DNA from: a virus
Reading direction: 5' to 3' (one strand)
Virus record (IMG/VR): IMGVR_UViG_3300017989_000200
Coordinates: 1-42,006 of that record
Length of the DNA stretch: 42,006 nt
Part shown: positions 1,639 to 38,869 of the stretch, piece by piece
Numbering within the stretch: position 1 is the first letter of the stretch
Layout: each line of letters opens with the position of its first letter
Program-made: the position numbers and the translations under genes
The notes under the pieces: generated by a model
The model's database searches: none
Told to the model about the DNA's origin: nothing
What the model saw: only the letters and a program-made list of their open reading frames with translations

Positions 1639-2696
1639 ACCGAGAACACGTCGGCTGGTGGGGGTTGCTGGCGTTCACGTTAGTACCGTGGCTGGTTTTG
1701 GGAGATGCCGCGGGCGATCCGATCACGGACGAGCTGCGTGAGCTGCCAGCCTTGCAGAAGCTGCACGTCAGTTGGCCGGTGGACGCCACGCTGCTCAACT
1801 GCGCGGCCAGGCTAACGGAATACGTACGGATCACCGGGGCGTGCTCTGTGGGGCTTGGAGCACCCGAAGCCGATTGGCTCAAGTGCATAGGTGCGTGCGA
1901 GTCGGGTGGCGGACGCCTGGTCGTCAAATACTCACCGTTACGATCGGCTCCACTGCCAGACGAATCACCGGCGGAGCGGGCAAACGCTTTCGACGCAAGG
2001 TTCACCGCGGAGCTCTGCGAGATTATGACGCAACTTGAGGGGCTGGAGGCCATCGTGGACGCCGGCGGCGTCGAGCTGGCCGTCATCCTGCTCGACTCGG
2101 AGAGCCACATCGTGACCGACGAGACCCGCCAGGCGCTCGTAGAGAAACACACGGCGGTCTATCGCTTGTTCAAGGACGCGTTCCCGACGGCCCGGATCGT
2201 CTGGTACAACGTCGGTGGTATCCGAGAGGCAGGCACGCCCGAGGGGTGGAACGAGTTTCCGAAGGTTCCGATCGAGATCCCGGTGGACAACGCTTTCTCG
2301 TGCTCGCTCTACGCCTTGCCGGAGATCCACCGGATGCGCGAGACCTTCCGGCGAACGCTGGCCAACGCGGAGCTGCACGGCGTGGGCGAAGTGGTCCCGT
2401 GGGTGGCGTTGGGCTGCGGGTGGGAACGGACGCCGTGGAGGCCTCCGCCAGGCCGTAAGGTCCGGCGCTGGTGTGACACCTGCGATTACCCGCTGGCGTA
2501 TTCATGGCAGCTCGGTGCGGAGCTGAACCGTCCGTGGTACTCGACCAGGCCGATGCAGTACGCGCCGTGGAGTGCTGCGCCCATCGTGGCGTTCTGGCCT
2601 CAAGCAGGCGACACCGGTGTGCCGGCCTGGTGGCGTCATTTCATTGCGTACGTGCGTGGAGCTCACAACCGAGCGTTGGAAGGAGGTGGGCCGTGA
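1635..2696 (+). CDS. Secreted protein, possible TIM-barrel glycosidase-like
   Basis: 353 aa. Residues 1-26 form a signal peptide or signal anchor (WWGLLAFTLVPWLVLGDAAG), so the protein should be exported. The body alternates strand-like hydrophobic segments with helices. It contains VELAVILLDSE (about residues 146-156), ARIVWYNVGG and VVPWVALGCGW, which look like beta-strands of a (beta/alpha)8 barrel with acidic residues at strand ends, as in glycoside hydrolases. This is inferred from pattern only. The C-terminal third is rich in Trp and Tyr, as in carbohydrate-binding proteins. Roles could be cell-envelope degradation for lysis, or polysaccharide or biofilm attack. The start overlaps the upstream stop, and the stop overlaps the GTG of the next gene. 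Confidence 0.6.
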   Translation: MNREHVGWWGLLAFTLVPWLVLGDAAGDPITDELRELPALQKLHVSWPVDATLLNCAARLTEYVRITGACSVGLGAPEADWLKCIGACESGGGRLVVKYSPLRSAPLPDESPAERANAFDARFTAELCEIMTQLEGLEAIVDAGGVELAVILLDSESHIVTDETRQALVEKHTAVYRLFKDAFPTARIVWYNVGGIREAGTPEGWNEFPKVPIEIPVDNAFSCSLYALPEIHRMRETFRRTLANAELHGVGEVVPWVALGCGWERTPWRPPPGRKVRRWCDTCDYPLAYSWQLGAELNRPWYSTRPMQYAPWSAAPIVAFWPQAGDTGVPAWWRHFIAYVRGAHNRALEGGGP

Positions 2697-3889
2697 ACAG
2701 GCCGGCCACGATTGAATGGCTATTCGGCGCTGGCAAGGGCTGGAACCCGATCACGGGCTGTGGAAGCGTGCCGGCGAGCAGGGGCTGCGAGAACTGTTGG
2801 GCCCGGCGTGCTGCACACACGCGGCTGCGGAAGCATCCGAGGTACAGCGGGCGGGACGTGGCCGATGACCTGACGCAGGATCCCAGCGATCCCTTCGCCG
2901 TGCGGGTGCATGAGGACCTGTTCGACGCTCCCCTGCACTGGCAGAAACCCCTTCTGATCTTCACGTGCGGCATGGGCGACTTCTTCCACGAGTGTATACA
3001 GAACAGCGTCCGGCTTGAGCTGTTCAAGGTGATGGCACGCTGCCCTCAGCACATCTTCATCATCCTGACCAAGCGGGCGAGGCTGCTGGCCTTCTACGCC
3101 GAAACACTGCCGCAACTCGTGGAACCTTACTGTCGTTGCCGCGACAACGTGATTTTCGGCGTGTCGGTCGAAGACCAGGACACCGCGGCTGCACGCCTCG
3201 GGCACCTGTGGCTTGCACACCTGCACGGCTGGACCACGATGGTCAGCTACGAGCCGGCGCTGGGCCCGGTGGATTGGCGTGCGAGCTGGTACCTCGGCGA
3301 TCACGTCCCGGACAAGTGTGGCCTGTGTGGCGCGACCGACCACGTCGCCAACGCTTGCCCGAAGCGCTTTGCCTTCGACTGGCTGATCTGCGGTGGTGAA
3401 ATCGGCGAGCGTGCATGGCGGTCGGACGCAGAGGGGCACGGCGGCTACGTGCAGGGAGCTCGGCCGATGCACCCGGACTGGCCGCGGGCCGCGCGTGACT
3501 TCGCGGTGGCACAGCGGATACCGTTCTTCTTCAAACATTGGGGCGAGTGGCGACCGCGCGAGGGCACGGCGAGCGGACCGCACGTACACGAAGGGCTCGA
3601 CGCCCTGGCGGCGAGCCAGGTGAGCGACGGCTGTTGGGTACAACCGCCACCGGTTCGGGGGTTCAAGCGTGTACCGGACGGTGAGGCGAACCTCTTCGAG
3701 TGGTCGCTCAATCCGAACGTGAAGACCTGGCGTGTGGGCAGAAAAGCGGCCGGCCGAGAGCTCGACGGCAAGGCGTGGAATGAGGCGCCGGTGAAGGTGC
3801 GGAACCTGGTCTGCCGGCATCAGACTTGGGTAGGTGGTGGCAGTCGCCACGGGCGACGAGAGGCCGAAGTCGCCCGCGTAGGATTATGA
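2693..3889 (+). CDS. Phage Gp37/Gp68 family (DUF5131) protein with CCHC zinc knuckle
   Basis: 398 aa. GTG start at 2693 chosen for the AAGGAGGTG site and the GTGA overlap with the previous stop. The N-terminus carries the family signature: WNPITGCGS then SRGCENCWA, giving a three-Cys cluster C-x8-C-x2-C (about residues 22-34) that recalls the radical-SAM iron-sulfur motif. IFTCGMGDFF, LTKRA, IFGVSVE, MVSYEPALG and the late WLICGGE are further family hallmarks. Inserted at about residues 209-222 is CGLCGATDHVANAC, a perfect C-x2-C-x4-H-x4-C zinc knuckle that I do not associate with this family. The biochemical function of DUF5131 is not established. A radical-SAM-like or nucleic-acid-modifying role is a family-level inference, and the knuckle suggests single-strand nucleic-acid binding. 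Confidence 0.85.
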   Translation: MNRPATIEWLFGAGKGWNPITGCGSVPASRGCENCWARRAAHTRLRKHPRYSGRDVADDLTQDPSDPFAVRVHEDLFDAPLHWQKPLLIFTCGMGDFFHECIQNSVRLELFKVMARCPQHIFIILTKRARLLAFYAETLPQLVEPYCRCRDNVIFGVSVEDQDTAAARLGHLWLAHLHGWTTMVSYEPALGPVDWRASWYLGDHVPDKCGLCGATDHVANACPKRFAFDWLICGGEIGERAWRSDAEGHGGYVQGARPMHPDWPRAARDFAVAQRIPFFFKHWGEWRPREGTASGPHVHEGLDALAASQVSDGCWVQPPPVRGFKRVPDGEANLFEWSLNPNVKTWRVGRKAAGRELDGKAWNEAPVKVRNLVCRHQTWVGGGSRHGRREAEVARVGL

Positions 3890-4316: not shown

Positions 4317-4867
4317 AGGTCATAGCGAAACGACACCGACGCCGGCCAGGTCGATCGCCGGGGGGCGACGTCGCCGAGCTGCGGGACGTTGTTCGGAAGC
4401 TCGGGGGCTTCGCGATGGGGCTGGCGAAGCGCGTCAGCAAGAAACGGCAGAGCGAACTGTGGGCCCTCCACCATCACGAAAAGCACGGGGGCACGGGCAA
4501 CGACCAGCACACGGAGTGGGGCCGCAAGGTGTGGGACCGGCTGGAGAAGCTGGAGACGAGACTGAGTGAGCTGACGGCCGAGCTGGTGGCGATCGCGGAC
4601 ACGAGGGCCACCAAAGAGCAGGTCGAGCACCAGGTTAACGGGTTGAGTGAGCGGCTAAAGACGTTCAACGACCACGTAAAGGCGATCGCGGCGAGCAGGC
4701 CTGTCAAGCGCGAACTGTTGTTACTCAGGCGGGTGCTGAGCAATCGGCGCTCGACACTGTGGAAAACGACCTGCGGCGGGTACGGAACGAGCCGGAGAGA
4801 CTCGACGCGATGCAGTTGGAGCTCAACAAAGCCGAAACTCGCCTCAGCTCCCTCGGGGAAACGGTAG
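4313..4867 (+). CDS. Coiled-coil protein, likely frameshifted at its C-terminus
   Basis: 184 codons from a TTG at 4313 overlapping the previous stop. After a basic N-terminus (KRHRRRPGR), residues about 75-140 form a heptad-rich coiled coil (WDRLEKLETRLSEL, VNGLSERLKTFNDHV). From about 4740 this frame turns into a Ser/Arg/Thr/Trp-rich tail (STLWKTTCGGYGTSRRDS) unlike the rest, while the -1 frame becomes coiled-coil-like. Either a single-base indel has broken the gene, a -1 frameshift joins the two frames, or there are two overlapping genes. A phage fibre or structural accessory role is possible but not shown. Confidence 0.6.
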   Translation: MKVIAKRHRRRPGRSPGGDVAELRDVVRKLGGFAMGLAKRVSKKRQSELWALHHHEKHGGTGNDQHTEWGRKVWDRLEKLETRLSELTAELVAIADTRATKEQVEHQVNGLSERLKTFNDHVKAIAASRPVKRELLLLRRVLSNRRSTLWKTTCGGYGTSRRDSTRCSWSSTKPKLASAPSGKR

Positions 4868-5136
4868 CGACGGTGCAAGCAAGCTGGACGCACGAGCACG
4901 TGCTGGCGGGCTTGGTTACGGAGGTGTCGGCCATTCACGCGGCGGTGCTGCTCGTGGCTGAGGTTGCCAATGTGGGTGCGGCAGTGCGGAGTACGCTGAA
5001 CGTGGTTTGGCGAGGAGGTAGATGCGATGACGGGGACGAAGGACAAGCACGCGGAGATGGGAGCGCCGAAGGAGTTCATCGTGGAGCGGGTTCTGCGGAC
5101 GGGGCTGGTCAAGCCGGTGGCACTGCGGGAAGCTGA
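4759..5136 (+). CDS. Second-frame continuation of the coiled-coil protein
   Basis: 125 codons from a GTG at 4759. This frame reads ENDLRRVRNEPERLDAM, then KAETRLSSLGETVATV and a hydrophobic helix (AAVLLVAEVANVGAAV), which continues the heptad pattern lost by the 4313 frame. No good ribosome site precedes 4759, so independent initiation is doubtful. The last 110 bases overlap the start of the next gene and become Gly/Asp-rich, so the true end was probably near 5014, where GAGGAGGT serves the next gene. Best read as the 3' part of a frameshifted gene; a programmed -1 shift is possible but no classic slippery heptamer is evident. Confidence 0.35.
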   Translation: MENDLRRVRNEPERLDAMQLELNKAETRLSSLGETVATVQASWTHEHVLAGLVTEVSAIHAAVLLVAEVANVGAAVRSTLNVVWRGGRCDDGDEGQARGDGSAEGVHRGAGSADGAGQAGGTAGS

Positions 5137-5569
5137 GCGATTCATGGACTGCGTGCATCGGTTGGCGAGCTCGTTGTCCGCATGGCAGTACGCCCTGGTG
5201 GATAGCAGAACCGCGATCAACTGGTCGTTCAGCGACACCACGAAGCTCAAGGGGCCGGCGGGCCGGTTCCAGATGCTGTGCGTGGGGCATTGGGTGCTCG
5301 CGCTTCGCCTGATGCTGCACTTTGACCGTCTGCTGGCACGGCTTGTGAACACGGCGTGGAGCCGAGGAGAGTCCGGGGCAGCGAAGGATCCGACGGAACG
5401 GAGCAGACAGCTCGGCCGGCTCGAAGGGATGTTGGCGCAGGGCCTGGAGCAATGGACTCAGTGCAAGGAGTACCGGGAGCAGACAGGGCGTTTCGAGTGG
5501 CGGCGGGTCGTGTTCGAGCTGTACGACAGCGCGTACGACCTGGGCCGACAGGTCCCGTCGGGCGGGTGA
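5027..5569 (+). CDS. Hypothetical alpha-helical protein
   Basis: 180 aa. ATG at 5027 is preceded by GAGGAGGT. The composition is mostly helical with two hydrophobic helices (FMDCVHRLASSLSAWQYAL; MLCVGHWVLALRLMLHF) that look like a four-helix bundle rather than membrane spans. No family is recognised. The stop overlaps the next start (TGATG at 5567-5571), so it is likely made together with the 73-aa protein that follows. Confidence 0.65.
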   Translation: MTGTKDKHAEMGAPKEFIVERVLRTGLVKPVALREAERFMDCVHRLASSLSAWQYALVDSRTAINWSFSDTTKLKGPAGRFQMLCVGHWVLALRLMLHFDRLLARLVNTAWSRGESGAAKDPTERSRQLGRLEGMLAQGLEQWTQCKEYREQTGRFEWRRVVFELYDSAYDLGRQVPSGG

Positions 5570-25367: not shown

Positions 25368-26642
25368 ATGGCACGTATGGACGTACTGGATGAGATCAAC
25401 CCGGCGAGCTCGCCGCTGGCCAGGGCAACCGACGAGCCGTATCGCATGGCGGCGGAGGACGTCAAGCGAGATCTACGCAGCGAGCTGCTCGTCAAGGCGA
25501 GCGAGCCGCTCGAAGAGGCCGCGGCAGACACCGCGGGGATCCCCGAGGTCCCCCCGGAAACCCCGGTGACACCGCAAGGCCCGCGGATCATGTCGTTGCA
25601 GGCCTTCGCTGAAGCGATGTTCCCGGAAATCGTTGACAAGCGTGTCGTCCCCAAGGGAACCAACGCGCGGGTCCGCCAGGCGTACGGGCAGTACCTGCAG
25701 CACTTGCAGGCGCAGCGCGGAGCCCGCCAGGAAGGGCGTGAGGCAGCCGGGGCTGACCAGCAGATGAAGCTGGGCCGCTTCTACGCCCAGCTCGCCGCGA
25801 TGAAGGCCGGCCGGCAGATCAACCAGGACAAGCTCGAGCAGCAGGTCAAGAAGGTGGCGCCGGCTACGTTCAAGACCTTTGAGGCGTTTGCGGTCGATCG
25901 CATGCGCGGGCTGCCCCCGGATCGGTGGCAGAGCGACCCGGTGATCAACCTGTGGAAGCAAATGAAGGGTGTGGCCGACGGGCAGAAGGCAGCGATGCCC
26001 AAGACGCTCGAAGAGGCCGCGGTCGCGGAGATGAAGAAGACTCCGAGGGACCAGTGGGACGCGAACCCGATCATCCGCCTCTACCGGGAAATCAAAACAC
26101 CCGGGGCAAAGGGGGACGCCGGCGTCCCCAGTGTTGCTGACCAGCGGGCGAACCTGCTGCTCGATGCGACGAAGGGCATGGAGCCCAAGGACGCTTATAC
26201 GTTTGCGACGTCACCCGCCCGAAGCATGGAAGGCGAACGGGCGGGGAGCCTCTCAAGCAGCGATCTGCATGAGGAGCTGTTCGGTCAGCTCGGGTACGGA
26301 GGCCTCGTCCAGAAGCTGGAGGGTGGTGGGCCCCGCGGCTATCTGGAGGCTTACCGAGCCGTCGCTAATATCGGCCTGTTCGCCGACCAACGCCAGCAGG
26401 CGGCACTGGCCGGGCTGCTCGAGCGCTATAAGCCGACCGTGCAGGAGGTAATCGAAGCAGGCCCGCGGTTTCGCGGCGCAGATGGCACGCGGCACGGCAC
26501 GGGCGAGCTCACCGAGGCTGAGGTCGAAGAGCTCCTGCAGGCGATCATGTCGCCCGAGGAGATCGCCAGGTTGCAGGCCCGGCGTCAAGCATTGCCCGCG
26601 CCGGCCAAGAGTAACTTCGAGTACAAGGGGCGGCTCGACTGA
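25368..26642 (+). CDS. Ejection protein candidate with internal repeat
   Basis: 424 aa, ATG at 25368 after AAGGAGG. It is mostly helical (YGQYLQHLQAQRGARQEG, MKLGRFYAQLAAMKAG). Two similar units occur: PPDRWQSDPVINLWKQMKG (about residues 183-201) and TPRDQWDANPIIRLYREIK (about 224-242), an internal duplication. The C-terminus is helical with a Pro-rich end. The stop overlaps the start of the giant gene (TGATG), implying co-production and probably co-packaging. Confidence 0.6.
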   Translation: MARMDVLDEINPASSPLARATDEPYRMAAEDVKRDLRSELLVKASEPLEEAAADTAGIPEVPPETPVTPQGPRIMSLQAFAEAMFPEIVDKRVVPKGTNARVRQAYGQYLQHLQAQRGARQEGREAAGADQQMKLGRFYAQLAAMKAGRQINQDKLEQQVKKVAPATFKTFEAFAVDRMRGLPPDRWQSDPVINLWKQMKGVADGQKAAMPKTLEEAAVAEMKKTPRDQWDANPIIRLYREIKTPGAKGDAGVPSVADQRANLLLDATKGMEPKDAYTFATSPARSMEGERAGSLSSSDLHEELFGQLGYGGLVQKLEGGGPRGYLEAYRAVANIGLFADQRQQAALAGLLERYKPTVQEVIEAGPRFRGADGTRHGTGELTEAEVEELLQAIMSPEEIARLQARRQALPAPAKSNFEYKGRLD

Positions 26643-29600
26643 TGGGAGATCTGCTCGATGAAGTGCTGGCCGACGTCGATCGAGTGTCCGCCGACACCGG
26701 CCTGGACGAGGCTATTGCGCGGCGGGCCCGGCCCGATCATCTCGCTGACGTGGTGCGATCTAGTCAACGGGACGCAACCTTAGCCGGGTCCGGCGGCTCA
26801 CCGTGGGTCGAGGAGCTACGCGACATCCTCACGGGGCCTGACTCGGAGCTGGGGGTAGCGGCCTTGTCGGCCGAACCCGAGGCCGAGCTGTTAGCCGAGA
26901 TCGACCGCGTTGCCGACCTGGCCGCGCTGGAGGAGTTGGCGGCTCCCTCTGCGCAGGCGCCGGTTGATCCGGGTCTGGTTGCCTCGCCAGACACTGTCGA
27001 ACGGATAGCAGCGCCGCTGCCCCCGTCCCAAGTCGCGGACCTTCCGGCTGCGAACGCCGAGATGGCCGCGACGATCCGGGAACGCCGAAACGAGGCGGTC
27101 CGGATCATGCAGGCCGACCAGGCCGCGGCGCGGGCGGTACAGCCACCGAGCCTGCTACGGCGTGTCACCGATTACCTGGGTTTCACGGAGCCTGGCCAAC
27201 CAGGCCCCGCGAGCGAGCCCGAGCCAACCGCGGCTACGCCCGAGGACGTCGAGGAGCTCCCGAGTCACCTGCGGTACGCAGTCGAACCGGTTGTCACCCG
27301 GCTCAAAGAGCTGTACGGCGTGTACGGGCATTTCAAGCTGGGGCAGCTTGCCGCGGAGATCGTCGAGGCGGAGGCGGACTACCGGATCCGCAACGGCCTG
27401 TTCGACCAGGGCGAAGTCAAGAAGGTCAACTGGGACGACTGGTTCGCGACGCTGCCTCTGCGAGCTCAGGGCCTGTGGTACGCCAAGGGCGTGGTGGCGG
27501 AGCGCCGCGGATCCACCTTCTACGACAAGACGGCGCTCGAGAACCACATCCACGACGAGCTGATGCTCGGCCTGCCGATGTACGGCGAGAAAGCACACAG
27601 CCTTCAGCTCGGCTACTACGACAAGCTCCGGAAGCTCACGCCGGCAGACCTGCCACCGGCGAAGGGTTTCTTCAGGAAGATGGCGCAGTTCGGCGGCAAC
27701 CTCGCCCCGTTGGTGGCGGAGCTCGCAGTGGTTCGCAGGCCGCTGGGCGGTCTGGCCCGCGGTGTCACCAGACGGACCGCCTCACGCGCCCTCGGGGAGA
27801 CCGCTCGCACCGCTGCGGGCTTCGGTCTGCGTGCCGCTACCGTTCCCGGCGGCGAACCGGCCAAGGAAGCTGCTTTCGGTGCGGTCCTCGGGGGCGCTCA
27901 AGCGGTGGGTGGTGCGCTGGCTGGAGCACGCGGTTTACCTCGAGGTGCCGGGCGTGGCGTTGGCACCGGCGTGACCTTCGGGACCGCCGCGGCGATGGAG
28001 CCCGGGGCCGGCGTCGAGGACGTCCTGATCGCCGGCGTGGTGGCGCCGATTCTTTTCCACGCGCAGGACATCATCCGGTACCCGTTCCGACCTCGGCAGC
28101 TCGTTCCCGCGGGCTACCGTGGCGAACGCATCCCGAACACGCTCGACGAGATGCGGGATAGCCGGTTGCTGAGCCAACGGTTAATCTACCGGTTTTTGAA
28201 GCTGGCCGAGACGCCGGAAGCCACCGCTGAGATCCGGGCCACGGCCAGGTCAATCCAGCGACTCTACGACCAGGCCCGGCGAACAAACTTCCGAGACATG
28301 TCACCGGCGGAGCGGGCCGTCCTCGAGGAGTTCATCACGAGGTACAGCCCGGCGGAGGTTCTGAAGCGAAGAGGCGTACCCGCCGACGAGGCCCAGCAGG
28401 CCGAACAGAAGGCCCGACACCGGCCGATCCGGGCGAAGGTGCGCCGGGAACCGGCTGCAACCCCACCAGAGCCGAGGAAACCGGCTGCAACCCCACCAGA
28501 GCCGCCGAAACCCGCTCCAGCCCGACCAGAGGCGGCCAGGCGGACCGCGAAGCCGGCCAGTTTGCGTGACATAAGAGAGGTACGTCACGAGCTCTTGCGG
28601 GTTACCAGCGAGCTGGATCGGACGACGGATCCGACCAAGCAACGGGAGCTGATGGACCGACAAGACCAGCTCCGGGCGAGGCTGCGAGCCATGGATCCCG
28701 AGGCGTGGGGCGGCGGGATAGGCGGAGCACCGCGGCCGGAGATCCCAGCGACGCCCAAGGCTCCGGTTTCGCCACCGCCCGAGGAGTTCTTTGCTGGCAT
28801 CGAGAACGAGCCGGACCTGCTCGCCGGCGAGCTGGCCGAGTGGGAGCAGGCCAAGCGCGAGGCCGCAGAGGCCGGCGACGCCGAGGGCATCTTCCGGGCC
28901 GAAGCCTACGCCCGCTGGCTGCGGGCACAGATGCCGATTGCACCACCACCCAGCACGCGTACACAGCCGCCAGCAGCTCCTACGCGCGAGCCCGGTGTAC
29001 CTGGACCCCCGGAACCCTCAGAAGCTCCAGAAACGCCGAAAGCGTCAAAAGTCACAGAAGTCACAGAGGAGGAAGTTCCGGAGATCCCCGTCCAGACGCC
29101 CGCGCAATACTTCGCGAGTATCCGAGGTCAGCCGTTGTCGTTGGCGCAGGCTCGCCTCGATTGCCTCAGGGGCCTTGACGAAATCGGCAAGCCCGAGACC
29201 GAGGGAGAGAAAGCTGTCGTACAGCGTCTTAACGCGATGGTGCGTTGGCTGAGCAAGCAGCCTGGAGTCGTGGAGGCCAACGAGGAACTGGCCAGGCAGA
29301 GACGCGTGGAGCTCGGCGAGCCGGAGTATCCGCCCGAGGGCGTGCGCACCGGCTTCATGGCCGGCGGGGGTGGCATCATGAGAGCGCCGGAGCGGCCCGC
29401 CGAGATCCCGCAGGCGGCAGCCGCGACAAAGCGGCTCTACTGGCATGGCGACGAGGCGGAGTACACGGGCAAGTCGGAGATGCTGCACGGCAAGACAGCG
29501 TACGAGGCTCGAGTGATTGAAGGGCACCGCAAGGGTGAGCTGGTCTGGACCTATCGCGCGCCCGAGCCCGTGGAGCCCGTGACGCACGAGCGGGTGAAGG

Positions 29601-32600
29601 AGATAGCGGGCATCCTGCGGCGGGACCTGGGTAGTTCCCGAGCCGGGGCCGAGTACGCGCGGAGAATCGAGCAGGCTGGCGGCGACGACGCGGAGCTCTA
29701 CGGACGCGTCGCGGCGATGCTCGAACGGGCGGCTCACCCGCCGACGCCCAAGGGCCCCATCATGGGGATTCCTGCGATCGCCGGTGCCAAGGTGGAACCG
29801 TCGGGTGAGCGGGAACCGCCCGAAGCCGGGAAACCGACAAGGGCGAGAGAAGCAGCCTGGCCCGATGATCCAGACCAGATCTACGAGATGGTCCTCAAGA
29901 ATGAAGGGCCAGAACCGGCACGGCTGGTACGGGCCTTGTTGGACGCCAACATCCTCACGGTGGAGACGCACGCCAGCAAAGAGCACGGCATCAACGTACG
30001 GGTGGCTTACCTGGACGACGTCAACCGTTCGATCATCGGGGCGACCTACTCGGGCGGTGAAATCAGCGGGGCCCGGGTGCAGACCGACCGAAGCCTGACG
30101 GAGACACCAGGCTTCTACCAGGACATGATCCAGGTCGCACCGGGTCCTGACGTTGCTTTCACGATCGACGGCATCGCGGAGATGATCCGCCACCAGGCGG
30201 AGCCCCCGGGCTTTGGGCCTCGGATCGAGGTGCCCGAGCCCGGCAGTGCTGAGGCGATCGAGGCAACCGCCAAGACCTTTGAAACCTGGCAGGAGTTCGC
30301 ACCCTTCGGCACGCGGGTGATCATGCCCGACGGCACGGAAGCTACGGTGCTTGACCCGTCGAAGCTGCGTCTCGAAGGTGACGAGGGGTTCGTGTTTACC
30401 GAGGACGACGTCGCTGCCATGGGCCGTGCCGGCGAGGTCCTCGTCGAGCAGCCCGACCCGGAGAGCCCGAGCGATATTCGACGGGAAATCATCGAGGCCA
30501 GCGAGCTCCAGCCGGTCGAGGAGCCCGCGGGGATCCCCGGGGCGCCGAAGGTTTCAGAAGCGCCTGAAACCAACGAAGGCTACCTGGTACCGGGCACGCG
30601 CGTGGTCGTGACGTTCGAGGGTAAGCAAGTCCAAGGCGTGATCATGTCAGATGCCGAGATCGCGGCGGAGGGGGTGGGCCCACATACTCGCGAGGAGATG
30701 CTTCCGCAGGGTCGTGTCATGGTTCGCCTGGAGACGCCTGACGGACAGAGATTGGCCCGCTTTTATCGGGCCGATCAAATAACGGCGGTCGAGCCCCGAC
30801 CCGGTGCCCAGCCGCCGCGTATAATTGAAGAGGAGCCACCACATGAGCCAGGAGCCGAACCAGGGCCAGGATTGGTTGAAGGACCCGCAGGCGGGCCCGT
30901 TGAACGGCCTCGGCGAGCAGGCGAAGGACTACCTGCGCCGGAAGCGCCCGAAGGAGTACCAGCGCCTCCTGGCCAACGGAGAGCTCCAGAGGGTCCTGTA
31001 CCAGAGGCAGAAGCTGGCAGAGCAGGTGATCTTGAAGGCCGAGGAGGACGGCCTGGACACCCACCAGTCGCAGGAGCTGGCGGCGCCGATCTTGTTTCCG
31101 ACGTCGGAACAGGAAGCGGAGCTCGTTCGCCAGGAGCAGCAGGAGTTCCAGGAGCTACTGGACGAGGAGCCGCCCAACAACGCCCCGGTCCTGTCGAACA
31201 AGTGGGCGCGCAAGGAGGAGAAGCGGGTCGGCCGCGCCACGAAGAAATGGAAGGCCCGACAGGAGGCGCGGGCCCGCCGACAACCCCCACCGTCGAATCG
31301 CCCGCCGGCCTGACCGGCGACTACATCATCCAACCGGGCGAGATCGTTTTCCCCGCTGGCGAGAAGACCCGCACACGCGCAAACCTGGAAGCCATCAGGA
31401 TTGTCAAACGGCTCGCGGAGAGCGGGGAAGATCCCACGCCCGAAGAGCGGAGAGCCCTGGTCCAGTACACCGGCTGGGGCTCCAACCGCTCGATCTTCAA
31501 GGGCTGGGGGTGGCACCCGGATCCCAAGTGGGAGAGCGAGTACAAGGACCTCGAAAACCTCCTCGATGAGGACGAGCTCGCCACGGCGCAGCGCAGCACG
31601 CAGTGGGCGATGTTCACGCCACCCGCCGTGATCCGCGAAATGTGGTCCGCCGTGCGCCGGCTTGGTTTCAGAGGCGGGCACGTGCTGGAGCCCGCGGCCG
31701 GCGTCGGTCATTTCTTCGGCGCCGCTCCGCCCGAGCTGCGTCGTGTCACCGGTCGCGTGGCGATAGAGATCGACAAGGTCAGCGGAGCGATCGCGGAGCT
31801 GCTCTACCCTGACAGCAACGTGCGGATCCAGGGCTTCGAGGAAGCGCTGCTTCCCAAGGGTTTCTTCGACGTCATCATCACTAACGTGCCGTTCGGCGAC
31901 GTCGCCGTGTTCGACCAGCGCTACGCGGCCAGGCTGCGCCGGCAGATCCACGATTACTTCTTTGTCCGCTCGATGGATCTGCTTCGACCTGGTGGCGTCT
32001 TGGCCGCGATTACCTCCACCGGCTCGATGGACAAGCGCGCGACGACGATCCGCGAATACCTGTCCGACCAGGCCGACCTGGTCGGTGCGATCCGGCTCCA
32101 CGAAAACATGCTCGCCGGCACCAAGGTGACGGCGGACATCATCTTCTTGCAGAAGCGTGAGCCTGGTGCGCAGCTTGGCGGCGAGGCGTGGGTCGAAAGC
32201 AGGAAGATCAAGGTGGAGGATCCCAAGAGCGGATCCACCGTCGAGCGTTACGTCAACGAGTATTTCATCAACAACCCGGACCAGGTCCTCGGCAAGATCG
32301 TGGCCGGCAGCCTTTACGGGCGCGGCGGCGGACCCACCGACAGTATCGTGATCGAGACGGACGGGGCGCCGACGCTGCCCGCCGCGATCGCGGCGCTACC
32401 CGACAACGTCATGGGGACGAAGCCCGACGAGGCCCCCACGGTTCCCAGCGACCCCGTCGAGCTGATACCGGCCGAGAAGGACATGCCCTACTACGCGATG
32501 GTGCTTCGAGAGGGCAAGCTGCACCAGGTCATGCGTGACGGCAGTATGGCACCCATCGAGCAGGCGATGATCGGCAAGCACGAGGCCGCGGCGAAGCCGG

Positions 32601-35600
32601 ACGCCAAGAGCCAGAAACGCGCCCGCGGCGTCGCGATGACCAAGATCGCCAAGGCCCGGGCGCTGGTACAACTCCGCGACCAGGTCCTCAAGCTCCAGCG
32701 GGCCATGCTCGGCAAAGCGGACGAGGCCGAGCTGGCAGCCGACCAGGCCGAGCTCAACCGGATCTACGATGCATTCGCCAAGAAGCACGGCCCCATCCAC
32801 AAGACCAACAACCTGGCCGCGATCGTGGACGACGCCTACACGCGGTCAATCGTTCGCAGCCTGGAGCACTACGACAAGCAGCGCAAGACGGCAACCAAGG
32901 GCTCGATTTTCACGAGGCGTGTCCTAGAGCCCGAGCCCGAGGAGCAGGTCGAAACGATCGACGACGCCCTGGCTGTGATGCTTAACGAGGGCGGCGGCGT
33001 CCTGGACATGGAGCGGATCGCCGAAATGCTGGGTTCGACCGCCGACCAGGTCGAGCAGCGCGGGCTTTCGCAGGGCCTTTGGTTCAAGGAGCCGGCCGGC
33101 CCGCTGGTCGTGGCCGACGAGTACCTGTCGGGTGACGTTCGTGAGAAGCTCCGCCAGGCCCAAGCGGCTGCGGAGATCGAGCCGGACACGTACAGCCGGA
33201 ACGTGGAGGCGTTGCAGGGAGTGATTCCCGACGACCTGGGGCCCGAGGACATCGCGGTGGGCCTCGGCGTCACGTGGGTACCGCTCGACATCATGCAGGC
33301 GTTTATCGATCACCTTTTCGGGCGAGGCATGACCGTCCGTTACGAGAAGGCGACAAACCGGTGGGCCTTCAGCGGTAAGAGTGCCGTGCGTCATCGCGTC
33401 GCCTCTACGGACACGTGGGGAACGCAAGACGTGGACGGAGTGAAGCTGCTTGAGAAGGCGATGGCCCACAAGAAACCCAAGGTCACGCGCGAGGAGACCG
33501 TCGGCAATGAAACCATCCTGGTCGATGATCCCAACGCGACAGCCCTGGCATTGGAACGTCAGAACGCCATCCGGGCGGAGTGGGAGCGGTGGCTTTGGGA
33601 CGACGCGCAGCGGATAGAACGACTCGTCCCGATCTACAACGACAAGATGAACGCCATTGTGCCACGCCAGTACGATGGGTCACACTTGCGTCTGCCAGGC
33701 ATGTCGCCGTTGTGGCGTGACCGGCTTCGGCAGTATCAGCGCCGTGCAATTTGGAGAGGCGTCGCCGGCACGGGCAACACGCTGCTCTTCCACGCCGTTG
33801 GTGCTGGCAAGACCATCGAGCAGACCGGCATCGCGATGGAGCTGCGCCGGCTGCGTCTTGCCCATAAGCCGGTGGTTGTGGTGCATGGATCCACGTATGA
33901 GCAGTTCCCCGCACAAAGCCGGGAGGCTTACCCACTGGCGAAGCTGTTTGCGATTGACACCGACGAGATGCGTCGCCAGGGTCGCAACGCGGCGTTGAGT
34001 CAGATCGCGTTCGGTGATTGGGACCTGGTGCTCATGCCGCACAGCACGTTTACCAAGATCCCGATGAGCCCGGAATCGACCGCGGCCTACTTCAAGCGGC
34101 GCATGCAGGAGTTCGACGACGCCAAGCGCGACGTGCTCGCCGAGGGCAGGGAGGGCGAAGCGACCAAGAGCATCATCCGTGAGCTGGAGAAGGCCAAGCA
34201 GAGGCTGGAGGTGAAGCTGAAGGAACGCCTGGCCAAGCTCGAAGCCTGGCGTGGCGAAGGTGGCATCTGGTTTGAGGACCTCGGCATCGACTGGCTGATC
34301 TACGACGAGAGCCACGCGCTGAAGAACCTGGCGTACACCAGCGGCGCCGGCCGCGTCAAGGGCATGGGCGACCCCAAGGGATCGGACCGGGCCTACGACG
34401 CGGAGATGAAGATCGAGTACATCCAGCAGATTCAGAACGGCCGCGGCATTGTTTTCGCGACGGGTACGCCGGTGGCGAACAGCGTGGTCGAAATGTTCAC
34501 CCTTCAGAAGTACCTGGCCCTGGAGAAACTCAAGGACCTGGGCATTGAGCACCTGGACGCCTGGTTGCACACCTTTGGCGAGATCTCCGAAGAGCTCGAA
34601 GCGACAATCGAGGGCACCTACAAGAGCCCGACCAGGCTGCGTGCTTTCCGGAACGTGCCCGACCTGGCCCGGCTGTGGCTCGACTTCACCGACATCGTGA
34701 CCACGCAAGAGCTGGTCGAGAAGTACGGCGTGGTCCTGCCCGAGATCGCCAAGAACAGCAGAGGGAAACGCGACTACGAAACGATCGTGGTGCCGGCCAC
34801 GGCTGAGCACCACGCGTTCATGAAGAAGGTACAGGCCTACGCGGAGTGGATCCGCCAGAACTGGCTTGAGGCCAAGCAGCAGGGCGAGAACTTCCTGAAG
34901 GCCACCAGCTACTTGCGTGAGGCCGCGCTCGATCTGCGCATGGTGGATCCGGGGTTTCTTGGGGAAAGCCTGGTCGCGGAGGACAGTTCGGAAAACAAGC
35001 TCTCGGTCATCGCCCGCAAGGTAGCGGCGATCCACAAACGAACCACCGGGGTGGAGCTGGCAGGTTACACGGCCGAGCAGCTCAACGGGCTCGGCGTGCC
35101 GAACGACAACGGCAAGGTCAACCTGACGCAGCTCGTGTTCCTGAGCCTGGGTGTCAACCGGAAGGCACACGGTTTCTGGCCGTACGAGGACCTGATCGAC
35201 AAGATGGTGGCAGCCGGCGTACCGCGCGCGGAGATTGCGATCGTGCAGGAGCACGACAAGGACCGCGAAGAGCTCTTCCGCAAAGTCAACGACGGTGAGA
35301 TTCGTGTCCTTGTGGGCTCCATTGAAAAAATGGGGGTAGGCGTTAACGTCCAGCGCCTCGTCGCGGCTGCACACTTCGCGGATCCACCTTGGCGTCCCGA
35401 CTGGATGGAGCAGGCTGAAGGCCGCGGGCGGCGGCAGGGGAACCTCAACAAAGAAGTGGAGATGTTCCTCTATGCGACGGAGAAGCTGGACGAGTTCTTC
35501 TACGACCTGCTCGCCCGCAAACGGATGATGATCGACCAGATCACCCGGGGGAACCTGAACGTCCGCAAGATCGAGGAAATCAGCCTGGAGGCCTTGCGCT

Positions 35601-38600
35601 ACGGCGAGATCGTGGCGTTGACCAGCGAAAACCCGTGGATCCTCAAGCTGGAGGAGGCCAAGCGTACGCTGGTCCGCCTGGAGGCCGAGCGGGGGGGGTT
35701 CGGCCGACAGCAGAGTGCCCTGCGAGCTGCCCAGCGAAAAGCGGACCAGGAAGTCGAGCTCCTGACCGCGTCGCTGCATCGACAGCGACAGCTTGCAGGT
35801 TACCTCGAGAAGCACCCGCCCAAACCGTTCGAGATGAAGGTCGGCGGAACCGTCTACACTAAGAGCACCGACGCCGGCCAGGCGTTGATACGCTTCACGA
35901 TGGCGACCACGGGCCAGGAGTGGCGAGACATCGGGGAATACCGCGGCGCTGAGCTGCAGGCCAAGATGGGGCTGATGGGGCAGATGATCCGCGTGCACCT
36001 GCCGCTCACCGGCATGGGTGAAGAGGTGCGCGGCATCGTAGTCCAGCAGGATGACGACCCGGCCGGCCTGGTCCGTCGCGTCGCCAACACGCTGCTAACG
36101 CACGTCCCCGAAACCGAGGCCCGCCTGGAGACGCGGAGGAAGGAACGCGACGAGATCGCGGAGCGTGTCGGGCAGAGCTGGCCCAAGCAAGCCGAGCTCA
36201 ACCAGGCCAAGGACGACGTTGCCAAGTACGAGGGTGAGCTCGACGCGTGGACCAAGCAGCAGGAGGGCACCGCGGAGGCAAGGGAAGAGGAGCCGCCTGA
36301 AGGCGGTGCCGGCGGCGGGCCGTTCCCACCCGCACCCGCGGGGAAGTACCCGATCGGGCTTTACCAGGATCTGAGCCCGGAGCAGTACGCCTGGCTGCGT
36401 AAGCTGGACCCGACCAAGCCCGGCCTCGGCATCGGAGCCATGGCGGACATACCGGATCCGCGAAGCCCGATCGCGAAGACCTACGACTGGATGGCGAAGC
36501 GTCTCCAGAACCTGCCAGCAGGCAGCAAGCGTCAGCGGCTGATGCGTATTTTGGGCCGGGGGCTGTACGGCGACCGCTGGGGGATCTCCCCGGAGATGTA
36601 CCGGTTCTTCGCGAGAGTCGAGGGAGCTGAACGGCTGGCCAGGGCGGATGCGGAACGCGCCCGGGAGTTCCTGACCGAGAAGCTCAAGCGATTCCGAAAC
36701 GAGTTCGGGCCCGACGCCGGCGACGAGGCGTACCGGCGGTGGGAAGGCCGCATGACCGACGTGTTCGACGGCAGGGAGACGCCGGACAGCCTGCCGCCGG
36801 TCGAGCGGCAATGGTTCGAGCAGATCAAGGCCAGGATCGACGGCCTGACGGAGGAGACGCTCCAGTTCCCCGAGGAGTACATCGCCGCGTTTGGGCTTCG
36901 CAACGTTCACGACGTCATCATTGAGCGAATGAAGGGCACGGGGACGCATCTGCGAGCCCTCTACACGCCTAGGCGGCAGACCGCGTTGGATGACACGGGG
37001 AAGGTGCGGAACGTGCTCCGTGGCGCTCGAGTGCGGGGTGGGATGTACAAGATCCGGCGGAGTGACAAGGGGATACCGCATCGGGAGACATGGAGCCTCC
37101 AACACGCCGACGGCACCTTCAGCCAGTTCTTCGACGAGGACACGGCCTTCGAAGCGTACCAGCGTGAGCTGAAGGCCAACGAAAAGAAGTACGGCTTGTC
37201 GCGGTTCGACCGGATCAAACTGTACGATTCGTTCGACCGTGAGCTGGTTTCCACGTTGGAGCCGATCCGAGATCTCGGGCTGCGCATCGCGTCCACGCTG
37301 ACGATGATGGAGCACAACCTTGCGACGCTCCGCCTGTTCGACATGCTCGCCACGGTCCACGCAATCGAAGACGATCCGGACGCTCCGCCACCGGCGGGCT
37401 ACCGCCATGTACCGGATCATCCCACGTTCGGACCTCTGCGGAACATGTGGGTCTCCCAGCCGGTTTGGGACAACCTGAACGCGTACGACGCCATCAGCAA
37501 GAACATGCTCGCGGCGATCTGGCAGACGTATCACTACGCGTGGAAGTCGGGCAAGACCGCGTGGAACTTGCGCACCTGGGTGAACAACATCCTGGGGCTG
37601 AACTTCTTTATGGCCCTCGATCACGGTTTCTTGCCTGTGCGTCGGCCGAAGTTCCTCCTGGCCGGTGTGGACGAGATGGCCAAGAAGGGCCCGAATTGGC
37701 GCTACCTGGTGGCCGAGAACCGGATCAACGTGGGCTGGAGCCGCGAAGCCGCCGAGCACTTCAAGAAGCTGTTTGACATCGAGAACATGAACCTGCAATC
37801 AACCTTGGGCAAGTGGGCCGAAGCGGGGATTCGGACGGCCAAGCGGGCCGATCGCCGCGTAGGCTACTGGTACGACTACCCGGACCAGTTGGCCATAATG
37901 GCCTCGTTCCTGGCGAAAACAGCCCCCGAGTCGGAGGGTGGGCTGGGCATGTCACGTGAGGAGGCGGTGCAGGATTTGTGGATGTACCCGAACTACGCGG
38001 AGCCCGGCACGTACGCCCGGTGGGCGCGCAAGTCGCCGGTGGGGGCGAGCTTCATCCTGTTCACGGAGCAGTCGCTCAAGATCATGCTGCGCGGCATGCG
38101 AAACCGGCCCGGCGCCATGCTCGCGATCTTCGCCGCGGTGGGGCTGCTCGGCATGGTCTCCAAGATCATCCTCGGCATCGACGAGGCCGAGGAGGATCTT
38201 CTCAACCAGGACCCGCGCCGTCGCGGCCGAGCGGGGCCCGAGGCGTGGCTCAACCGGTTCTTCCAGCCGTTCATTCCCTGGCGGGACAAGGACGGGAAGG
38301 CCGGTTGGGTCGATCTGCGGTGGAAGTTCCCGCTCGCCAACGACTTCAGGGTGGAAATGGGCCCGAACGGGATTGGTGTGCCGTGGCTTTTCAACACGCC
38401 GGCGACCAGGGTGGTAACGCAAGCCATGAGCGGGAAGGACCTCTTCTACGGGACGCCCACCGTGGCCGAAGAGGCGGACATGGCGGAGTTCCTCTACTCC
38501 CACCTGAAGGCCGCGGCCGGCGAGCTGCTGCCGTTGCCCACGATGGTTGATCGAGGGTTCACAGAGGTATACCGCTCGTGGGTGGGGGAAACCGAGAAGA

Positions 38601-38869
38601 GCTTCGCGAAGGCCCTGGCCCACGGTGTCTTCGGCCTGGAGTTCAAGCGGCCGTACCTGCGACGTTGGGACGTCTACGACGCGATCAAGGCGGAGGTGGG
38701 CACGCCGGCGGCAGAGAAGTGGCTGGAGATGATCGCGATCTACAACGAGACCTACCGGCCCGACTGGCGGAAACCGATCAGCCCCAAGCGGGTGATCCGG
38801 GCGAAGGTGCGGAAGAAGGCCAGTGAAGCCGAGAAAGCGAAACACGGACACCTGCGCCGGCGACGGTAG
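26642..38869 (+). CDS. Giant polyvalent protein with DarB-like methylase-helicase
   Basis: 4075 aa. N-terminal 1-350: acidic and helical; about 353-480: Gly/Ala-rich hydrophobic; about 600-640: Pro-rich tandem repeats. About 931-965: a common phage module (AEYTGKSEMLHGKTAYEARV, EGHRKGE); about 1312-1385: SH3-like (GYLVPGTRVVVTFEG). Residues 1401-1557 are a low-complexity linker whose DNA carries a nested gene. From about 1567: an N6-adenine methylase (motif I LEPAAGVGH at about 1681, motif IV NVPFG at 1748). Then an SF2 helicase (HAVGAGKT, Lys2390; DESH at 2555; ATGTPVAN at 2606; QAEGRGRRQGN at 2924). From about 3220: a helical region with a membrane segment (3825-3845), resembling C-terminal domains of large polyvalent proteins. 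By analogy with P1 DarB it is probably injected with phage DNA to block restriction. Confidence 0.88.
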   Translation: MGDLLDEVLADVDRVSADTGLDEAIARRARPDHLADVVRSSQRDATLAGSGGSPWVEELRDILTGPDSELGVAALSAEPEAELLAEIDRVADLAALEELAAPSAQAPVDPGLVASPDTVERIAAPLPPSQVADLPAANAEMAATIRERRNEAVRIMQADQAAARAVQPPSLLRRVTDYLGFTEPGQPGPASEPEPTAATPEDVEELPSHLRYAVEPVVTRLKELYGVYGHFKLGQLAAEIVEAEADYRIRNGLFDQGEVKKVNWDDWFATLPLRAQGLWYAKGVVAERRGSTFYDKTALENHIHDELMLGLPMYGEKAHSLQLGYYDKLRKLTPADLPPAKGFFRKMAQFGGNLAPLVAELAVVRRPLGGLARGVTRRTASRALGETARTAAGFGLRAATVPGGEPAKEAAFGAVLGGAQAVGGALAGARGLPRGAGRGVGTGVTFGTAAAMEPGAGVEDVLIAGVVAPILFHAQDIIRYPFRPRQLVPAGYRGERIPNTLDEMRDSRLLSQRLIYRFLKLAETPEATAEIRATARSIQRLYDQARRTNFRDMSPAERAVLEEFITRYSPAEVLKRRGVPADEAQQAEQKARHRPIRAKVRREPAATPPEPRKPAATPPEPPKPAPARPEAARRTAKPASLRDIREVRHELLRVTSELDRTTDPTKQRELMDRQDQLRARLRAMDPEAWGGGIGGAPRPEIPATPKAPVSPPPEEFFAGIENEPDLLAGELAEWEQAKREAAEAGDAEGIFRAEAYARWLRAQMPIAPPPSTRTQPPAAPTREPGVPGPPEPSEAPETPKASKVTEVTEEEVPEIPVQTPAQYFASIRGQPLSLAQARLDCLRGLDEIGKPETEGEKAVVQRLNAMVRWLSKQPGVVEANEELARQRRVELGEPEYPPEGVRTGFMAGGGGIMRAPERPAEIPQAAAATKRLYWHGDEAEYTGKSEMLHGKTAYEARVIEGHRKGELVWTYRAPEPVEPVTHERVKEIAGILRRDLGSSRAGAEYARRIEQAGGDDAELYGRVAAMLERAAHPPTPKGPIMGIPAIAGAKVEPSGEREPPEAGKPTRAREAAWPDDPDQIYEMVLKNEGPEPARLVRALLDANILTVETHASKEHGINVRVAYLDDVNRSIIGATYSGGEISGARVQTDRSLTETPGFYQDMIQVAPGPDVAFTIDGIAEMIRHQAEPPGFGPRIEVPEPGSAEAIEATAKTFETWQEFAPFGTRVIMPDGTEATVLDPSKLRLEGDEGFVFTEDDVAAMGRAGEVLVEQPDPESPSDIRREIIEASELQPVEEPAGIPGAPKVSEAPETNEGYLVPGTRVVVTFEGKQVQGVIMSDAEIAAEGVGPHTREEMLPQGRVMVRLETPDGQRLARFYRADQITAVEPRPGAQPPRIIEEEPPHEPGAEPGPGLVEGPAGGPVERPRRAGEGLPAPEAPEGVPAPPGQRRAPEGPVPEAEAGRAGDLEGRGGRPGHPPVAGAGGADLVSDVGTGSGARSPGAAGVPGATGRGAAQQRPGPVEQVGAQGGEAGRPRHEEMEGPTGGAGPPTTPTVESPAGLTGDYIIQPGEIVFPAGEKTRTRANLEAIRIVKRLAESGEDPTPEERRALVQYTGWGSNRSIFKGWGWHPDPKWESEYKDLENLLDEDELATAQRSTQWAMFTPPAVIREMWSAVRRLGFRGGHVLEPAAGVGHFFGAAPPELRRVTGRVAIEIDKVSGAIAELLYPDSNVRIQGFEEALLPKGFFDVIITNVPFGDVAVFDQRYAARLRRQIHDYFFVRSMDLLRPGGVLAAITSTGSMDKRATTIREYLSDQADLVGAIRLHENMLAGTKVTADIIFLQKREPGAQLGGEAWVESRKIKVEDPKSGSTVERYVNEYFINNPDQVLGKIVAGSLYGRGGGPTDSIVIETDGAPTLPAAIAALPDNVMGTKPDEAPTVPSDPVELIPAEKDMPYYAMVLREGKLHQVMRDGSMAPIEQAMIGKHEAAAKPDAKSQKRARGVAMTKIAKARALVQLRDQVLKLQRAMLGKADEAELAADQAELNRIYDAFAKKHGPIHKTNNLAAIVDDAYTRSIVRSLEHYDKQRKTATKGSIFTRRVLEPEPEEQVETIDDALAVMLNEGGGVLDMERIAEMLGSTADQVEQRGLSQGLWFKEPAGPLVVADEYLSGDVREKLRQAQAAAEIEPDTYSRNVEALQGVIPDDLGPEDIAVGLGVTWVPLDIMQAFIDHLFGRGMTVRYEKATNRWAFSGKSAVRHRVASTDTWGTQDVDGVKLLEKAMAHKKPKVTREETVGNETILVDDPNATALALERQNAIRAEWERWLWDDAQRIERLVPIYNDKMNAIVPRQYDGSHLRLPGMSPLWRDRLRQYQRRAIWRGVAGTGNTLLFHAVGAGKTIEQTGIAMELRRLRLAHKPVVVVHGSTYEQFPAQSREAYPLAKLFAIDTDEMRRQGRNAALSQIAFGDWDLVLMPHSTFTKIPMSPESTAAYFKRRMQEFDDAKRDVLAEGREGEATKSIIRELEKAKQRLEVKLKERLAKLEAWRGEGGIWFEDLGIDWLIYDESHALKNLAYTSGAGRVKGMGDPKGSDRAYDAEMKIEYIQQIQNGRGIVFATGTPVANSVVEMFTLQKYLALEKLKDLGIEHLDAWLHTFGEISEELEATIEGTYKSPTRLRAFRNVPDLARLWLDFTDIVTTQELVEKYGVVLPEIAKNSRGKRDYETIVVPATAEHHAFMKKVQAYAEWIRQNWLEAKQQGENFLKATSYLREAALDLRMVDPGFLGESLVAEDSSENKLSVIARKVAAIHKRTTGVELAGYTAEQLNGLGVPNDNGKVNLTQLVFLSLGVNRKAHGFWPYEDLIDKMVAAGVPRAEIAIVQEHDKDREELFRKVNDGEIRVLVGSIEKMGVGVNVQRLVAAAHFADPPWRPDWMEQAEGRGRRQGNLNKEVEMFLYATEKLDEFFYDLLARKRMMIDQITRGNLNVRKIEEISLEALRYGEIVALTSENPWILKLEEAKRTLVRLEAERGGFGRQQSALRAAQRKADQEVELLTASLHRQRQLAGYLEKHPPKPFEMKVGGTVYTKSTDAGQALIRFTMATTGQEWRDIGEYRGAELQAKMGLMGQMIRVHLPLTGMGEEVRGIVVQQDDDPAGLVRRVANTLLTHVPETEARLETRRKERDEIAERVGQSWPKQAELNQAKDDVAKYEGELDAWTKQQEGTAEAREEEPPEGGAGGGPFPPAPAGKYPIGLYQDLSPEQYAWLRKLDPTKPGLGIGAMADIPDPRSPIAKTYDWMAKRLQNLPAGSKRQRLMRILGRGLYGDRWGISPEMYRFFARVEGAERLARADAERAREFLTEKLKRFRNEFGPDAGDEAYRRWEGRMTDVFDGRETPDSLPPVERQWFEQIKARIDGLTEETLQFPEEYIAAFGLRNVHDVIIERMKGTGTHLRALYTPRRQTALDDTGKVRNVLRGARVRGGMYKIRRSDKGIPHRETWSLQHADGTFSQFFDEDTAFEAYQRELKANEKKYGLSRFDRIKLYDSFDRELVSTLEPIRDLGLRIASTLTMMEHNLATLRLFDMLATVHAIEDDPDAPPPAGYRHVPDHPTFGPLRNMWVSQPVWDNLNAYDAISKNMLAAIWQTYHYAWKSGKTAWNLRTWVNNILGLNFFMALDHGFLPVRRPKFLLAGVDEMAKKGPNWRYLVAENRINVGWSREAAEHFKKLFDIENMNLQSTLGKWAEAGIRTAKRADRRVGYWYDYPDQLAIMASFLAKTAPESEGGLGMSREEAVQDLWMYPNYAEPGTYARWARKSPVGASFILFTEQSLKIMLRGMRNRPGAMLAIFAAVGLLGMVSKIILGIDEAEEDLLNQDPRRRGRAGPEAWLNRFFQPFIPWRDKDGKAGWVDLRWKFPLANDFRVEMGPNGIGVPWLFNTPATRVVTQAMSGKDLFYGTPTVAEEADMAEFLYSHLKAAAGELLPLPTMVDRGFTEVYRSWVGETEKSFAKALAHGVFGLEFKRPYLRRWDVYDAIKAEVGTPAAEKWLEMIAIYNETYRPDWRKPISPKRVIRAKVRKKASEAEKAKHGHLRRRR
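28448..28537 (+). repeat. Three 30-bp tandem repeats in the giant gene
   Basis: Two almost identical units (28448-28477 and 28478-28507) share ACCGGCTGCAACCCCACCAG. A third, diverged unit follows (28508-28537). They encode a PAATPPEP(R/P)K-type Pro-rich linker. The near identity of the first two implies recent slippage or recombination, and copy number may vary between relatives. Confidence 0.85.
30551..30604 (+). repeat. 54-bp direct repeat, copy 2 (inside the giant gene)
   Basis: Differs from 8919-8972 at two bases. It encodes VSEAPETNEGYLVPGTRV at the start of an SH3-like domain and begins with the same palindrome. A shorter relative, TCAGAAGCTCCAGAAAC at 29018-29034, also encodes SEAPET in the same gene. 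Confidence 0.85.
30843..31313 (+). CDS. Nested gene in an alternative frame of the giant gene
   Basis: 156 aa, fully inside the giant gene in another frame. ATG at 30843 is preceded by AAGAGGAG with seven bases of spacing, which is unusual inside a coding region. The product is soluble-protein-like: charged helices (AKDYLRRKRPKEYQRLLANG, LQRVLYQRQKLAEQVILKA), then LFPTSEQEAELV and a basic tail (RKEEKRVGRATKKWKARQ). The layout 'RPKEY..L...GELQ..L..R...A.......GL......' followed by 'LP/FPTSEQE' matches a family of small phage and mobile-element proteins that usually stand alone. The giant frame over the same bases is Gly/Pro/Ala/Glu-rich low complexity, as expected of a shadow frame. Function unknown. 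Confidence 0.75.
   Translation: MSQEPNQGQDWLKDPQAGPLNGLGEQAKDYLRRKRPKEYQRLLANGELQRVLYQRQKLAEQVILKAEEDGLDTHQSQELAAPILFPTSEQEAELVRQEQQEFQELLDEEPPNNAPVLSNKWARKEEKRVGRATKKWKARQEARARRQPPPSNRPPA

Follow-up and report, generated by a model that had tools for sequence, protein, structure and literature searches.

TnpV (PF14198) is a transposon-encoded protein of Clostridia, specified by an ordinary gene; it is known from transposons and conjugative elements. In phage P1, DarB is carried in the virion and shields DNA from type I restriction. DarB-like polyvalent proteins, which join a methylase to an SNF2 helicase, include P1 DarB and gp70 of Bcep22 and BcepIL02 (PMC5512222); the giant product is contained in the virions of phage JC1 (PMC9144972). 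An out-of-frame gene within a phage methylase has been described for ShiLan, a selfish HNH homing endonuclease of patchy distribution which lies in conserved methylase sequence (PMC11855218).

The DNA analysed here (the window) spans the 42,006 bases of an IMG/VR virus record, in which terminase, portal and major head genes lie upstream of a giant gene. The giant gene (26642..38869, plus strand; 4075 aa) was identified from the ORF list, Pfam and tblastn. Its product consists of an upstream region of ~1400 aa, a linker in the overlap described below, an N6 adenine methylase and an SNF2-type helicase. The methylase core is at 31856..32164 (plus strand; PF02384, residues 182-284 of window:31313-33000) and the helicase C-terminal domain is at 35252..35437 (plus strand; PF00271, residues 752-813 of window:32999-38869). 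Pfam finds N6_Mtase (E 1e-8) and Helicase_C (6e-4) in the one ORF; the N6 methylase joined to an SNF2-type helicase, which characterises the DarB group, is therefore present. By tblastn the giant matches 105 phage records, many of them annotated as DarB-like, and it is ~35% identical to the DarB-like proteins of phages such as PBC5, Itty13, PEp14 and VvAW1 across the methylase region (829 aa).

The nested gene and its family

A TnpV-like gene of 156 aa (30843..31313, plus strand; PF14198) is nested in the +1 frame of the giant. It has an ATG start and a Shine-Dalgarno sequence, GAGGAG (30830..30835, plus strand), 7 nt 5' of the ATG. Over the same bases (30842..31312, plus strand) the giant's frame is open and encodes a Gly/Pro/Ala/Glu/Arg-rich linker with drifting residues; its 156 residues include 38 Gly, 28 Pro, 23 Ala, 17 Glu and 13 Arg. 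GC content at giant codon positions 1/2/3 is 0.65/0.46/0.83 just downstream vs 0.91/0.72/0.40 in the overlap; this flip is also seen in relatives. A codon model trained on the giant itself places the nested frame ahead by 41 nats per 50 codons, and the overlap is the sole segment of the window's giant in which the model prefers another frame. The nested frame is the coding frame in the overlap, and the nested gene is real. A chance ORF is ruled out by the codon-phase, ribosome-site and conservation tests.

The original prediction of a nested 156-aa gene with GAGGAG at 7 nt is borne out by the ORF, the codon phase, the TnpV match and same-frame homologues in dozens of relatives. The giant's frame is, as had been proposed, a shadow frame here: it is Gly/Pro/Ala/Glu-rich and its residues are not conserved. 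The product had also been likened to a familiar kind of small phage protein encoded on its own. This is only loosely right; TnpV, the type in question, is known from transposons and conjugative elements.

The window's own product matches the TnpV profile with E 6e-5 and 23.4 bits, under the curated cut-off of 27. Independent relatives match at 5.9e-6, 6.4e-5 and 4.3e-4. Among 46 diverse nested members, 28 match the profile (best 1.2e-25); Firmicutes-type members match strongly, and the same core is found throughout. The gene is not part of a Tn4451-type transposon with its resolvase: the record is that of a phage and has genes for terminase, portal and major head. For this reason the gene is termed TnpV-like and not a Tn4451 gene. 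A Firmicutes TnpV query gave no match against viral contigs.

The AlphaFold model of the small protein is helical, with a mean pLDDT of 81.8 and a core above 94. Its top PDB match is 2apl (PG0816), a DUF1896 protein, with a Foldseek E of 1.9; the structures superimpose with Z 8.3 and an rmsd of 1.6 A over 60 residues, in the first half only, and for helical proteins Z below 13 is not proof. The next PDB match has Z 5.0. The DUF1896 profile (PF08989) does not match the nested proteins, while profile-profile comparison by hhalign gives E 1.9e-5 and a probability of 78%, confined to the two-helix region. From profile and model together, the nested family is probably homologous to DUF1896, with moderate support. 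The fold search indicated no function, NCBIfam gave no match, and a Pfam search of the nested proteins found no nuclease or recombinase domain and no HNH.

Matches to the PHROG 'endolysin' family phrog_938 were rejected as an artefact of a fusion in Sinorhizobium phage PBC5, as they cover the last ~100 of 2185 positions. Since phrog_938 carries the nested protein as its C-terminal end, nested proteins may be mislabelled as endolysins. In PBC5 (L003:2937-9476) the upstream gene terminates in the nested frame, with the small protein as its C-terminus; the methylase part is in another frame, and either the split is natural or a single-base sequencing error has produced it. As the split may be an error, this layout is not used for the order of events.

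Distribution and selection on the two frames

When the window's nested protein or methylase is used as a query, zero or one distant locus is returned and no close relative; the window's nested protein is only ~13-26% identical to other family members. The selection tests therefore rest on relatives. A same-family +1 ORF lies directly upstream of the methylase in phages Stean, PBC5, Itty13, PEp14, VvAW1 and LASTA, and in these records the small gene has no separate annotation. Profile-guided scans yielded 45 viral loci and 3 genome loci. In all but one of these, the small ORF is enclosed by an open ORF in a different frame, and the relation is always +1. The exception is an apparent prophage remnant in Corticibacter populi (L053:7001-7297), where the giant has been destroyed and the small gene remains intact behind a good ribosome site.

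A further survey selected loci by methylase and not by the small gene (80 fetched; 91 surveyed in total). With a ribosome-site filter, a family ORF is found in 68 loci; in all 68 it is inside the giant ORF and in the +1 frame, and +2 does not occur. Further surveyed loci have a family match without the filter or, in the same place, a +1 ORF, diverged or unrelated, that has a ribosome site. When the methylases are clustered at 70% identity, the family is present in 47 of the 58 resulting lineages. Of 55 nested starts, 53 have a ribosome site in front of them, vs 6.5% of 10,470 other ATGs. The divergence of the small protein is correlated with that of the methylase (Mantel r 0.86).

The nested gene also occurs in 95 Listeria plasmid records, within a gene usually annotated as ArdC-like or SNF2. 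Embedded TnpV genes outside the window are found in these plasmids and in L152, L066, L108 and L136. In one Listeria plasmid record (L151:4724-5068) TnpV carries an annotation and no intact giant is present. L136 has an embedded TnpV at 2657-3205 and a second TnpV-like ORF at 9932-10309, which begins at the very end of the giant and is nearly outside it. The nested profile found no convincing nested gene in P1 and D6. A class-wide search of 229 genomes around one chromosomal carrier returned the starting genome alone, so the arrangement looks rare in chromosomes. The embedding is ancient, widespread and maintained; so far it is mostly unannotated.

Substitutions were compared in 19 non-overlapping sequence pairs from relatives of the window. 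At giant codon positions 1/2/3, per-site differences amount to 0.199/0.199/0.351 upstream of the overlap and 0.101/0.084/0.323 downstream; inside it they are 0.196/0.092/0.083. In the overlap, change is fast at the third position of nested codons and slow at their positions 1 and 2; the small protein is thus conserved while the residues of the giant change. Relatives with conserved giant residues and a broken nested frame would have refuted the original prediction; the opposite is found.

The giant's frame is constrained in a different way. Each giant codon comprises base 3 of a nested codon and bases 1 and 2 of the next, and the giant acquires a stop wherever a nested codon ends in T and the next begins with AA, AG or GA. 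T is found at 0/949 of these risky wobbles in the overlap and at 238/2,008 of the other sites; in the same context outside the overlap it is found at 19.8%. With one sequence per lineage the count is 0/874 (P ~7e-45, assuming independent sites). Both frames are under selection: the small protein is under purifying selection, and the giant's frame is only kept free of stops.

The frame relation offers a reason why the nested gene is always in +1. Every NNT codon has a synonymous NNC codon, so stops in the observed frame can always be avoided without amino-acid cost to the small protein. Unavoidable stops are absent from the observed frame, but the other frame has at least one in 47 of the 55 proteins. 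Most third positions hold G or C, so that reading through the gene automatically yields a Gly/Pro/Ala/Arg-rich flexible linker; 79% of its residues are G/P/A/R/S/Q/E/T, and order-promoting residues make up 11% vs 27-32% in the flanking giant.

Origin of the arrangement

The account that best fits these data, to which we give a probability of about 80%, is that an older small gene was read through by a methylase-helicase gene and that both products were kept. An ancestral mobile element would have carried a stand-alone gene of the TnpV/DUF1896 superfamily, encoding an all-helical protein of ~100 aa, directly upstream of a methylase-helicase gene. The methylase-helicase frame would then have been extended upstream through the small gene, at first as an N-terminal extension. 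In many phages, including that of the window, the extension may have run on into further upstream genes to give one giant polyvalent protein. From one long mRNA, some ribosomes would read the giant through the overlap and others would start at the internal site.

Two observations suggest that the small gene is the older and the giant's linker the newer: the small protein belongs to a structured helical family, and a separate DUF1896 gene precedes the methylase in Bacteroides. In Bacteroides phage TP4 and a B. fragilis plasmid (L057, L153), this gene lies directly before a separate N6 methylase gene and overlaps it by 11-14 nt, in another relative frame than in the giants. The predicted direction of the fusion, by read-through of a small gene, is supported by these elements. 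The original prediction was of a scar, or a one-off fusion of this phage, which does not agree with an arrangement shared by 47 of 58 lineages with both frames maintained. Nor is the proposed joining of a 1400-aa gene required. In L051/L133, L106 and L146 the giant starts shortly before the small gene, with no more than a short extension at its N terminus; fusion to a large upstream gene is therefore a step of its own. A genome in which the 1400-aa gene, the small gene and the methylase-helicase gene are all separate was sought and none was found.

Classical overprinting would reverse this order, with the nested gene born de novo inside an older giant. The small gene is always inside the giant in this clade, and no surveyed genome carries it as a separate gene within the giant-bearing methylase clade. 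However, the nested protein belongs to TnpV and probably to DUF1896, in a structured family some of whose members are separate genes, and both codon composition and conserved residues track the nested frame while the giant's frame is low-complexity and drifting; de novo birth is consequently improbable. It is also very unlikely that the giant is two products and that GC-rich composition happens to leave its frame open across the small gene. The giant's overlap residues are not conserved, its openness over the nested ORF in the window alone is not significant (P ~0.27), and the PBC5 upstream gene ends in the nested frame with the methylase annotated separately, all of which would suit two products. 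Against this, T is at none of the 949 risky wobbles where ~20% is expected, AT-richer relatives included, and the giant product is detected in JC1 virions (PMC9144972).

The small gene might instead be a homing or mobile cassette, inserted selfishly as the out-of-frame HNH element ShiLan is. That element is a precedent for an out-of-frame gene in a phage methylase with the host frame left open (PMC11855218), and the name TnpV comes from a transposon gene. Such insertion has very little probability here: the nuclease and recombinase domains are absent, carriage by 47 of 58 lineages is not patchy, divergence follows the methylase (r 0.86), and the gene is in the linker rather than in a conserved active-site region. 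Under the preferred reading, an older small gene kept within the giant, the small protein is most likely a dedicated partner of the methylase-helicase module (a chaperone, activator or restraint). This role is suggested by linkage, as the small gene accompanies the module in phages, plasmids and conjugative elements. Since it is also found on plasmids without virions, a role with the module's action on DNA is likelier than one in packaging.

A second embedded +1 ORF, of 58-69 aa, is found in giants of the alphaproteobacterial type, ~5.2-5.7 kb downstream of the methylase start (L107:11657-11863, L116:11666-11872, L123:11672-11872, L124:11639-11812, L114:11198-11386 and others). It has the motif 'FDTLQxWxxW...PxRxxxLKQAR' and the same substitution flip, with giant position 3 at 0.41 in the flanks vs 0.10 inside. 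L097 has a possible relative of this ORF upstream of its methylase. In L072, tandem +1 ORFs lie in the giant at 4840-5136 and 5140-5364; the first is TnpV-like, and the second, which has a ribosome site of its own, encodes another small protein. In L112 and L113 (236-433 in each), a +1 ORF embedded in another giant encodes a small basic protein, 'MPSKSDRQHNFMRM...', which we take to resemble a common stand-alone phage protein.

The two embedded genes, unrelated to each other and both in +1, together with candidates such as the L072 tandem ORFs, raise a broader idea, for which we see even odds: polyvalent giants of phages and conjugative elements may repeatedly grow through small neighbours in the cost-free frame, the swallowed genes staying alive and supplying linkers. 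The embedding itself suggests a simple code-level rule that limits read-through of a small gene, in gene fusions, to a single frame. The old gene would be the small one, and the new coding sequence the giant's linker. The family is a large, multi-phylum case of conserved gene embedding that spans plasmids and double-stranded DNA phages; with the small gene masked by the giant ORF, gene finders mostly miss the whole family. It points to an unstudied protein tied to DarB-type anti-restriction machinery. Tractable carriers include the cultured phages PEp14, LASTA, BcepIL02 and VvAW1 and common Listeria plasmids.

Comparison with known systems

Searches of the literature, which covered open-access papers, turned up no reference to the embedding, and the nested gene is unannotated in the examined phage records of DarB-like relatives of the giant. 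DarB-like proteins share with the giant the same methylase-helicase dyad, and the match extends across the whole methylase region. P1 darB differs in that it begins at the methylase and no nested family gene is detected in it, whereas relatives of the giant carry one.

The nested proteins match most of the TnpV profile; unlike the transposon gene, the nested gene is embedded out of frame. DUF1896 (2apl) has the same helical core as the nested protein by profile and fold, and homology is moderately supported. In contrast to the nested gene, DUF1896 has a longer C-terminal half, is not embedded and is in another relative frame. ShiLan resembles the nested gene in that a second protein lies out of frame in a phage methylase gene with its own frame open; the nested gene differs in being a near-ubiquitous non-nuclease located in a linker.
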